Shown here piece by piece: positions 34,735 through 38,807 of a DNA stretch of 64,000 bases. The number at the start of each line of letters is the position of its first letter. Within the stretch, counting starts at the first letter, position 1. Source of the DNA: Lachnospiraceae bacterium (GTDB taxonomy: Bacteria; Bacillota; Clostridia; Lachnospirales; Lachnospiraceae); assembly GCA_024687305.1 (NCBI GenBank), contig JAILEQ010000064.1:1-64000 (forward strand), read 5' to 3'. The position numbers were made by a program, and so were the translations under genes. The notes under the pieces were generated by a model, which saw only the letters and a list, made by a program, of their open reading frames with translations, did not search any database and was not told the origin of the DNA.

Positions 34735-34926
34735 TTAAGCTTCTGCGATTACCTTCATTAATTCTTCAATATCTATGCCGTGAACCATTGCGGCTTCCTC
34801 GAGGCTTTCACCCTGAGCCGAAGGGCATCCGAGGCAATGCATGCCTGCTTCCATAAGGATGGGTGCTATTTGGGGAGCCGTGCGTAAGATCTCGCCTATT
34901 GTCATTTCTTTTGTGATTTCGCTCAT
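34735..34926 (-). CDS. DUF1858-like protein (hybrid-cluster-associated disulfide motif)
   Basis: [52 protein letters not shown]. Confidence 0.88.
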
Positions 34927-35060
34927 ATATTTTCCTCCTGACAATCTTCATTAACAATTACAATCAAACTATATAACATACAAATTACCTTAGCAAGCAT
35001 TGAAAAAGTAAAAATACTATAAAATCTCCGAATGTACTTAAAAAAGAACACTGTGCATTA

Positions 35061-35089
35061 TTGACCGCGAATAAAGGTGAGACTATAAT
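35061..35089 (+). promoter_or_regulatory. Near-consensus promoter of the pfl operon: TTGACC-N17-TATAAT
   Basis: -35 35061-35066; -10 35084-35089; spacer exactly 17. Confidence 0.8.
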
Positions 35090-35111: not shown

Positions 35112-35130
35112 ATTTGGGACTGTCCCAAAT
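35112..35130. promoter_or_regulatory. 19-bp perfect palindrome ATTTGGGAC-T-GTCCCAAAT in the predicted 5' UTR of the pfl operon
   Basis: 9-bp arms, 1-bp centre; between predicted TSS and SD. Confidence 0.75.
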
Positions 35131-35161
35131 GAGCACAAATACAAAACAGGAGGCATTTCAA

Positions 35162-37201
35162 ATGAGACCGGAATGGACAGATTTTGTAGGCGGCAAGTGG
35201 GATCATGAGATCAACGTTCGTGATTTCATCCAGAAGAACTATCATCCTTATGACGGTGATGAGTCTTTCCTTGCTGGACCTACACAGAACACAAAAGACT
35301 TATGGGCAATGGTAACAGAGCTTAGTAAGAAGGAAAGAGAAGCAGGCGGCGTTCTTGATATGGACACCAAGGTTATCTCTACCATTACTTCTCACGGCCC
35401 CGGATATCTTGACAAGAGCAAAGAGACCATCGTTGGTTTCCAGACAGATAAGCCCTTCAAGCGTTCAATGCAGCCTTATGGCGGTATCCGTATGGCAGAA
35501 AAGGCTTGTTCCGACAACGGATATACAGTAGATCCTGAGATCAGTGAGTTCTTCTCAGTTCACAGAAAAACACACAACGCAGGATGTTTCGATGCTTACA
35601 ACGATGAGATGAGAGCTTGCCGTTCTTCTCACGTTATCACAGGTCTTCCGGATGCATACGGAAGAGGACGTATCATCGGCGACTACAGACGTATCGCTCT
35701 TTACGGTATCGACAGACTTATCGAAGACAAGATCGATCAGAAGAACTCCACCGGACGTGTTATGACAGATGATGTTATCCGTCTTCGTGAAGAGATTTCC
35801 GAGCAGATCACAGCATTAAAGCTTATGAAGGAAATGGCAGCTTCTTACGGTTGCGATATTTCCAAGCCCGCATCAAACGTACAGGAAGCTATCCAGGCTA
35901 CATACTTCGGATACCTTTCAGCAGTTAAGGAGCAGAACGGTGCAGCTATGTCACTCGGACGTACCTCTACCTTCATCGACTGCTTCGCAGAGAGAGACTT
36001 AAAGAACGGAACCTTCACCGAAGAACAGATCCAGGAATTCGTTGATCACTTCATCATAAAGCTTCGTTGCGTTAAGTTCGCTCGTACTCCCGAATACAAC
36101 CAGATCTTCGCAGGCGATCCCGTATGGGTTACCGAGTCGATCGGTGGTGTTGGTGTTGACGGCCGTCACATGGTAACAAAGATGAGCTTCAGATATCTTC
36201 ACACACTTGAGAACCTTGGCGCAGCTCCCGAGCCCAACCTTACGGTTCTTTGGTCAACAAGACTTCCTGAGAAATTCAAGAAGTTCTGTGCTAAGATCTC
36301 TATCACAACATCTTCCATCCAGTATGAGAACGATGACCTTATGCGTGTAACTCACGGTGATGACTACGGTATCGCATGTTGCGTATCCTCCATGAGAATC
36401 GGTAAGGAAATGCAGTTCTTCGGTGCTCGTGCTAACCTTGCAAAGTGCCTCCTCTATGCTTTAAACGGTGGTGTAGACGAAGTTACCAAGAAGCAGGTTG
36501 GTCCCAAGTATCGTCCTGTTGAAGGTGATTACCTTGACTACGACGATGTAATGGCTAAATACACCGACATGATGGAATGGCTTGCAGATGTATACGTTAA
36601 CACTCTTAACGTTATCCACTACATGCACGACAAGTACTGCTATGAGAGAGCTCAGATGGCTCTTCATGACAGAGACGTACGTCGTTACTTCGCTACCGGT
36701 ATGGCAGGTCTTTCGGTTGTTGCCGACTCGTTATCTGCTATCAAGTATGCTAAGGTTAAAGTTATCCGTGACGAAGACGGTATCATCACCGATTTCGAGA
36801 CCACAGGTGACTTCCCTAAATACGGTAACGATGATGACCGTGTTGACTCCATCGCTCAGGAGCTTGTACACAAGTTCATGACCATGATCAGAAGACATCA
36901 TACATACAGAGACGGTTTCCCGACCATGTCAGTTCTTACCATTACCTCTAACGTTACATACGGTAAGGCAACAGGTAACACCCCTGACGGACGTAGAAAG
37001 GGACAGCCTTTCGCTCCCGGTGCAAACCCGATGCACAGACGTGATACTCACGGTGCAGTTGCTTCACTTTCATCTGTTGCTAAGCTTCCTTTCATGGATT
37101 CTCAGGACGGTATCTCAAATACCTTCACGATCATCCCCGGAGCACTCGGTAAGGAAGATCAGATCTTCGCAGGTGATATCGAAGTAGATCTTAACAAATA
37201 A
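35162..37201 (+). CDS. pflB: Pyruvate formate-lyase catalytic subunit lacking the C-terminal glycyl radical domain (split PFL)
   Basis: PFL sequence ([79 protein letters not shown]); stops at DIEVDLNK before the glycyl-radical domain. Confidence 0.93.
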
Positions 37202-37230
37202 ATTTACAACAATTACAGGAGGTGAACCCA

Positions 37231-37431
37231 ATGGATTCAAATGCAATGATCGATGACCTTGTAAAAATGCTTGACTCAGACATGAGCAACGGTGTAGGAC
37301 ATGTGAACGTCGACTTCGACGAGAACTCTCAGGGAAAGACCGTTCAGACCATGGGATGCACCGATTGTTCAAGAACTCCCCTGGCATGCAGTGTTCCGAC
37401 ACTTCATCAGGGACTCGACGATTACGAATAA
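37231..37431 (+). CDS. 66-aa Cys-rich small protein (C-x2-C-x6-C) within the split PFL operon; N-half resembles the start of the glycyl radical domain
   Basis: Own SD (AGGAGGTG); [66 protein letters not shown]. Confidence 0.88.
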
Positions 37432-37450: not shown

Positions 37451-37693
37451 ATGGCAGCTAATGCAGCTCAGGTTTCAAACCTTGTTTCATTACTTGATGG
37501 TTACGTTACCAAAGGTGGACATCACCTTAACGTTAACGTTTTAAACAGAGATACTCTTTTGGATGCACAGGCTCATCCCGAGAATTATCCTCAGCTTACA
37601 ATCCGTGTATCGGGTTACGCTGTTAACTTCATTAAGTTAACTCCCGAACAGCAGGCTGATGTTATTTCCCGTACATTCCACGAAGCTATCTAA
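37451..37693 (+). CDS. Stand-alone glycyl radical domain of PFL (GrcA/YfiD-like, 80 aa)
   Basis: [59 protein letters not shown]; own SD (AAGGAGG). Confidence 0.95.
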
Positions 37694-37707: not shown

Positions 37708-37738
37708 GAGCCCGGAGAAATACTCCGGGCTCATTTTT
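37708..37738 (+). terminator. Intrinsic terminator GAGCCCGGAG-AAATA-CTCCGGGCTC-ATTTTT between the glycyl radical domain gene and pflA
   Basis: 10-bp GC-rich arms and T-run. Confidence 0.85.
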
Positions 37739-37751
37739 ATAGGAGATCAGT

Positions 37752-38522
37752 ATGCAGGGAAGAATTCATTCACTCGAAAGCTTCGGTACGGTTGACGGAC
37801 CCGGAGTAAGATATGTAGTGTTCTTTCAGGGTTGTCCCATGAGATGTGCTTATTGCCACAATCCGGACACCTGGGAACTTAACGCAGGCGAACTCATGGA
37901 TTCGGATTATATCATCGAACAGTTCGAGCGTAACCGCAGTTTCTATACTACCGGCGGTATCACCGCAACAGGCGGAGAACCGCTCATGCAGATAGACTTC
38001 CTTACGGAACTCTTTACGAAAGCCAAAGAAAAGGATATCCATACGTGTCTCGATTCATCGGGTATTGCGTTCAATCCAAACAATCCCGAGCTTATGGCTA
38101 AGTTTGACAAGCTTATCAAAGTTACCGATCTTGTCATGCTTGACATTAAACATATCGATCCCGAAAAACACTTCGCACTTACCAAACAGCACAATGAAAA
38201 CATTCTTGCATTTGCACAGTATTTAAGTGATAACGGTGTTGATTTATGGATAAGACACGTTGTTGTTCCGGGACTCACCGATGATGATGTTTATCTTGAG
38301 AAGCTCGGATACTTTATCGGCGGTCTTAAGACATTAAAGGCTTTGGATGTACTTCCATACCACACTATGGGTGTGGTCAAATATGAGAAGCTAGGTATCG
38401 AATATCCGTTAAAGGGTGTACCCGCCATGAGCCAAAAGACCGCTTTGGAGAAAAAAGAAGTTATTCTTAAAGGCATAAAAGAACGTCGTAAAGACGACAA
38501 TACGGAACATACGAATCTTTGA
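37752..38522 (+). CDS. pflA: Pyruvate formate-lyase-activating enzyme (radical SAM)
   Basis: QGCPMRCAYCHNPDTWE (CxxxCxxC), TATGGEPLMQIDF. Confidence 0.96.
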   Translation: MQGRIHSLESFGTVDGPGVRYVVFFQGCPMRCAYCHNPDTWELNAGELMDSDYIIEQFERNRSFYTTGGITATGGEPLMQIDFLTELFTKAKEKDIHTCLDSSGIAFNPNNPELMAKFDKLIKVTDLVMLDIKHIDPEKHFALTKQHNENILAFAQYLSDNGVDLWIRHVVVPGLTDDDVYLEKLGYFIGGLKTLKALDVLPYHTMGVVKYEKLGIEYPLKGVPAMSQKTALEKKEVILKGIKERRKDDNTEHTNL

Positions 38523-38636
38523 TCCGTTATTCTCCGTCTTTCTTTCGATTCTTCATTAAAAATTTACTTGTTAATTTTTCAGGTATATATTAGAATGGTT
38601 ACGACAAATAAGTATAAATACAAGGAGGAAAAAGTT

Positions 38637-38807
38637 ATGGCATTTTGTATTGGTGACAGCTGCGTATCTTGCGGATCTTGCGAATCTCAGTGTCCTGTAG
38701 GAGCTATCAGCGCAGGCGATTCAAAGTTTGAGATCGATCCCGCTGTTTGCATTTCTTGCGGCGCATGTGCAGGCCAGTGTCCTGTAGGAGCTATTTCCGA
38801 GGAATAA
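38637..38807 (+). CDS. 2[4Fe-4S] ferredoxin
   Basis: CVSCGSCESQCPVGAIS and CISCGACAGQCPVGAIS; SD AAGGAGG. Confidence 0.95.
   Translation: MAFCIGDSCVSCGSCESQCPVGAISAGDSKFEIDPAVCISCGACAGQCPVGAISEE

Follow-up and report, generated by a model that had tools for sequence, protein, structure and literature searches.

A small cysteine-bearing protein encoded between the two halves of a permanently split PFL is a candidate third part of the enzyme in Lachnospiraceae

PFL is a central enzyme of anaerobic fermentation. In E. coli, its glycyl domain starts with a helix and the barrel strand beta-10 (PMC8683613). After cleavage of the E. coli enzyme, residues 696-733 are needed both for YfiD binding and for radical installation by PflA; deletion of these residues makes YfiD binding undetectable and lowers radical installation 32-fold, the core truncated at 695 showing no detectable YfiD binding (PMC8683613). 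For other glycyl-radical enzymes, gating of the glycyl domain by an accessory subunit has been proposed, with BSS-beta as a precedent and MASS-delta as a proposed case (PMC12358834), and PFL is not among the enzymes that the HPAD/BSS/MASS literature lists as having such subunits.

In the window, by which we mean the whole stretch of 64,000 nucleotides analysed here (contig JAILEQ010000064.1 of a Lachnospiraceae bacterium), the two parts of PFL are encoded by separate genes with a 66-aa ORF between them, the features being as follows.

35061..35089, +, promoter-like site TTGACC-17-TATAAT upstream of the pflB core (consensus scan, 11/12 matches)
35129..37201, +, PflB core (TIGR01255 reaches position 664/744; PF01228 1-50 only)
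37217..37223, +, Shine-Dalgarno sequence AGGAGGT of the 66-aa ORF (7 nt upstream of the ATG, read directly)
37231..37431, +, 66-aa ORF, proposed PFL accessory subunit (ATG start, TAA stop, read directly)
37249..37317, +, N-terminal half of the ORF, residues 7-29, copy of the glycyl-domain start (profile-profile, HMM and shuffle tests)
37357..37419, +, Cys module of the ORF, residues 43-63 (family alignment; related tails fused to PflB cores elsewhere)
37451..37693, +, GrcA3, free 80-aa glycyl-radical protein with the RVSGYAV loop (NF038360, PF01228 51-106)
37708..37732, +, intrinsic-terminator-like hairpin between grcA3 and pflA (10-pair stem, T tail)
37752..38522, +, PflA, radical-SAM activase (TIGR02493, E 5.8e-84)

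The original prediction of a 66-aa ORF with a strong Shine-Dalgarno sequence between the PFL halves is thus exact. The Pfam Gly_radical profile PF01228 is divided at the gene split, with positions 1-50 in the core and 51-106 in the 80-aa ORF; in the C-terminal domain of the core, the helix, strand beta-10 and the glycyl loop are missing, and the core has no Cys tail of its own, and GrcA3 scores 157.1 bits (E 8.6e-47) against NF038360, the cut-off of which is 158. Because the terminator-like hairpin stands before pflA, the pflB core, the 66-aa ORF and grcA3 likely form a three-gene transcription unit. It is noted that promoter-like sites in the region are no more numerous in the consensus scan than in shuffles. 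The cluster is flanked on one side by a gene for a redox-disulfide protein (TIGR03980; window 34735-34944, -) and on the other by a gene for a 2[4Fe-4S] ferredoxin (window 38568-38807, +), which are found in 39/42 and 38/42, respectively, of the full-flank loci where the ORF is a separate gene (trans loci); few fused-tail or intact loci carry the TIGR03980 gene.

This locus resembles the YfiD/GrcA spare-part system in having a free glycyl-radical protein for a PFL core without its own loop, into which it docks in E. coli and would dock here, and, as we propose, in needing a beta-10-containing segment at the C-terminal end of the core for docking and activation. By contrast, the E. coli element is a same-chain remnant left after damage and carries half a glycyl loop, whereas here the split is genetic, and the proposed element has a gene to itself or forms a tail fused to the core, with a conserved Cys module. 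The likeness to the HPAD, BSS and MASS accessory subunits is that a small Cys-bearing protein is encoded next to a glycyl-radical enzyme (for the ORF, in 80/80 loci) and, for BSS and MASS, that a role in gating the glycyl domain has been proposed. Unlike those subunits, the ORF has no four-Cys HiPIP-like or rubredoxin-like site, only two near-invariant cysteines, and its N-terminus is related to the enzyme's own glycyl domain; its family HMM has no related match among the PDB chains, the solved HPAD, BSS and MASS small subunits included. The neighbouring 80-aa protein takes its name from NF038360 (GrcA3, autonomous glycyl radical cofactor), with which the first 25-30 residues of the ORF align weakly; unlike GrcA3, the ORF has no glycyl loop, and it scores only 14.8 bits against the cut-off of 158. 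No named family for the ORF was found in Pfam, NCBIfam or PHROGs, it has no Pfam Gly_radical match, and its match to the membrane-fusogenic family PF04380 (E 0.18) is due to chance. In the open-access literature no paper was found on GrcA3 or on the 66-aa ORF.

The 66-aa ORF is a real gene, conserved and under selection, with a median dN/dS of about 0.11 (525 pairs) and with copies in 32/97 related genomes in a single-sequence search. A scan of named genomes gave 382 encoded relatives, 80 of which were kept for locus reading; these 80 loci, mainly of Lachnospiraceae with Acetatifactor and Eisenbergiella labels among them, have the core upstream and GrcA3 downstream of the ORF in every case, and PflA is also in the locus in 72. 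Conservation beside split PFLs, which had been set beforehand as the test of the original prediction, is thus borne out in 80/80 loci. In a sample of 349 genomes of the phylum, the ORF was matched only in the window's own genome and in one genome of the same family. Note also that in two genomes, G029 and G043, the ORF ends just past a C-x2-C, and that there are orphan copies beside a CheC-like gene (L023:1477-1677) and beside a MoxR-type ATPase gene (L024:1501-1704).

Co-occurrence was counted, among the matches listed, in 294 genomes of the source's order that are at least 90% complete, with the window's own genome excluded and with an ORF called present at E below 1e-10. All 54 genomes with the ORF also have free GrcA3, which occurs in 73 genomes, so that 54/73 of the latter carry the ORF, while among the matches listed the ORF is in none of the approximately 158 genomes whose glycyl-domain match is an intact PFL only (Fisher p 7e-37 for ORF versus free GrcA3, shared ancestry being ignored). 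This comparison of split with intact PFL, which the original prediction had called for, is strong evidence from comparative genomics that the ORF belongs to the split enzyme; together with the neighbourhood it supports the suggestion that the ORF may be a third PFL component. Some genomes have second free grcA copies without the ORF, which look like spare parts (L046:2431-2673, L048:2429-2671 and L047:2159-2404); two of the three lie shortly after a CRP/FNR-like regulator gene, and the one in L046 also lies before a thioredoxin gene. Intact PFL is also encoded on IMG/VR contigs that are listed as viral (L180-L233, up to 233 kb), and in L207 and L219 the PFL frame has in-frame stop codons at positions where an amino acid would be expected, perhaps as recoded stops.

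The ORF was originally taken to be a glycyl-domain paralogue in which the glycyl loop is replaced by C-x2-C-x6-C. For the first approximately 30 residues, the profile and shuffle comparisons indicate that the ORF and the beginning of the glycyl domain are indeed homologous, the N-terminal half being the counterpart of about residues 682-709 of E. coli PFL. The ungapped 20-residue alignment with the glycyl-radical ORF, with 8 identities, is as had been claimed and is beyond chance, since the best ungapped score of 48 is equalled by 0/2000 shuffles; hhalign of the ORF against the glycyl domain gives a probability of 94% and E 1.4e-7 over 30 columns, and in whole-genome searches free glycyl ORFs are matched by positions 1-33 of the ORF HMM, the best E being 3e-6. 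For the C-terminal half, the paralogy does not hold: no relation to the glycyl domain or its loop was detected (502/2000 shuffles equal the score), and the RVSGYAV loop with the radical glycine is absent from every family member read. The half follows the pattern D-C-x(4-6)-A-C-x-[IV]-P-[NT]-L-x-x-G-[LM]-D, in which Cys46, Cys53 and Pro56 are near-invariant. Of the residues Cys43, Cys46, Cys53 and His59 that had been singled out, the middle two are therefore the conserved ones in 91 unique sequences, where Cys43 is replaced by Ser in 6 and position 59 is occupied by H in 55 and by E in 25. As the tail is an independent module, which in other genomes is joined to the core with no piece of glycyl domain, and as C-x2-C is not its conserved part, the wording of a replaced loop is unsupported. 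Two further candidates for this half were rejected, namely a mimic of the PFL active-site loop (LACSVPTL versus IACCVSSM), where 207/2000 shuffles equal the score and the likeness is not significant, and a metal site using His59, which is ruled out by the E in 25/91 sequences. A second paralogue family has a similar N-terminus (IDDIVSMLDNF..GRLKVKVS) and a different tail (YHHGRCDIGSAFACGIPFD) and is not beside pfl (L041:3013-3339, L042:2895-3134, L044:2396-2605 and, in the window's own genome, G000:C19:2073-2240); in L041 it adjoins a DUF2201 VWA-like gene and an AAA ATPase-like gene.

Among the split loci lacking the ORF that were fetched, 19 PFL cores have their own C-terminal fused tail with 2-3 Cys, examples being EECGNQACNIPNIMESIDNE, LECGVDSACAIPNLMVAVDD, GAGCGPNEACNIPNLNV, ECCSGGACDGATLFEGLD, DDCLCCEP and PDCACCEP, and 0/108 cores with an adjacent ORF have a Cys in the tail, so that the trans state (ORF) and the cis state (fused tail) are mutually exclusive. 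Sister pairs carry the same module in the two states, for example the ORF SLDCASGDMACKVPTLFEGMD (L029) against the fused tail GECCSGGACDGATLFEGLD (L136), and the ORF GSLDCAKGNLACKIPNL (L025) against the fused tail DLCSVGDSACNIPNL (L033). The tails with DCACCEP and DCLCCEP depart from the A-C-x-[IV]-P pattern, and thus their homology to the ORF tail is only putative. In G019, G320 and G343 the core is tail-less with no ORF adjacent, and the ORF is located elsewhere in the genome, as it also is in G300, where the core end is unread. Split status thus goes together with either ORF or tail, and the single clear exception is G216 (L137), a split enzyme with neither the ORF nor a two-Cys tail; G263 was left out of this judgement, its contig having no core.

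In a tree of PFL cores (65 rows), all split forms belong to a single clade (support 99/97) in which cis and trans are intermixed, and the well-supported branches alone require at least 5 changes for each of the two labels. Four intact PFLs (L156, L157, L164 and L175) are nested in the split clade and have a plain linker with no Cys module, from which it seems that re-fusion let the module go. Genus g129, which is also intact inside the split clade, has its core joined to the glycyl domain by a Cys-rich linker (NDTPDVTCGCEEVTCAVDAND; MDSGCCDCGDGNETAVAMDAND), giving the order core-Cys module-glycyl domain in a single chain. Comparative genomics thus shows that what all forms share is a short module with thiols, present in trans as the ORF or in cis as the core end or the re-fused linker. 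In genus g104 (L147-L152) the order is core-pflA-grcA in L150 and L152 with the ORF distant; in each of the three g104 genomes read, the ORF has a glutamate 5-kinase-like gene nearby.

Based on these comparisons, we propose that the ORF may be an accessory, third subunit of the permanently split PFL, which docks or gates GrcA3 at the core junction via redox-sensitive thiols, a reading to which we give slightly less than an even chance. That a shared element is tied to the split state comes from comparative genomics, while docking, gating and redox control are what we infer. When the module is in trans, the copy of the helix and beta-10 would anchor the ORF where the glycyl domain begins, so that the Cys module would land at the core/GrcA3 junction, its place in the cis and re-fused forms, and could serve there as a docking or recognition element for GrcA3. 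In the oxygen-cleaved E. coli PFL, residues 696-733 have this role in YfiD binding, and the module would take it over in a core that is cut before beta-10; since the split cores end even earlier than the E. coli core truncated at 695, a replacement docking element would be expected. The cysteine pair would tie docking, or radical installation by PflA, to reducing conditions, with GrcA3 seated and activated only once oxygen is gone. Counted against the accessory-subunit reading are G216, the re-fused clade of L156, L157, L164 and L175 without the Cys module, and G019 and genus g104, where the ORF is far from pfl. As for structure prediction by AlphaFold, the read-through core-ORF-GrcA3 chain had a mean pLDDT of 44.9 and was discarded; in the read-through core-ORF chain with phage PFL rows the core was usable, with a mean pLDDT of 73.6, and its best match was E. 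coli PFL (2pfl). In the second run the ORF had a pLDDT of about 70 in the helix, below 50 in the strand and about 26 in the tail, and neither of the two runs gave a confident placement of the ORF on the core.

The original prediction had also offered the ORF as a placeholder at the glycyl-docking site, where its helix/beta-10 copy would plug the open core barrel while GrcA3 is absent, shield the active-site cysteines and leave when GrcA3 docks. We consider this unlikely: the N-terminal half does copy the docking segment, and in E. coli the YfiD strand has to displace the resident beta-10 (PMC8683613), but no copy of helix or strand is present in the fused tails that stand in for the ORF in 19 cores, and one chain holds both the module and the glycyl domain in g129, and therefore plugging cannot be the shared function and does not by itself explain the fused-tail forms. 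Less probable still is the metal or Fe-S accessory subunit that had likewise been suggested, akin to the small subunits of HPAD, BSS or MASS. Nearly every form has two or three Cys, known accessory subunits of glycyl-radical enzymes bear Fe-S or Fe (PMC12358834), and a site could be shared between two chains; however, many ORF members have only two Cys and variable spacing, several tails likewise have only two, with spacings of x2, x4, x5, x6 and C-x-C-C, which makes a canonical metal site less likely, His59 is not conserved and there is no similarity to the solved small subunits. A similarly low probability is assigned to the cysteines acting as a quencher that returns the glycyl radical to glycine, or intercepts oxygen, before the backbone is cut; the thiols would be positioned near the glycyl domain and the redox-disulfide gene adjoins 39/42 trans loci, yet most fused-tail loci lack that gene, intact PFLs do without the ORF and the HPAD precedent is unconfirmed. 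Finally, it is very improbable that the target of the ORF is PflA, with a part in activase docking or cluster repair, and not the core or GrcA3, as pflA lies beyond a likely terminator that ends the three-gene unit and the alternative fusion partner is the core in the loci read, even though the two share a gene neighbourhood and radical installation needs an encounter of PflA with GrcA3.

In many gut and rumen Lachnospiraceae and related families, the main pyruvate-cleaving enzyme is split in two genes, and its almost constant pairing with a small Cys-bearing tail, be it as a tiny in-between protein or as a core fusion, suggests that the enzyme has a third part which has gone unrecognised. For the accessory-subunit reading in its wider form, namely that this is a PFL accessory subunit, possibly the first described, and a cis/trans-exchangeable thiol module that gates how a permanently split enzyme, whose glycyl-radical part is replaceable, is assembled or activated, we see the chances as evenly balanced. 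A dedicated third part, if true, would reveal what controls docking and the installation of the radical. That the module has repeatedly switched between cis and trans is a natural experiment, and it gives clear predictions on the role of E. coli residues 696-733 in YfiD rescue. Moreover, a permanently split PFL with a small, exchangeable, oxygen-sensitive part could itself be an oxygen-tolerance strategy.
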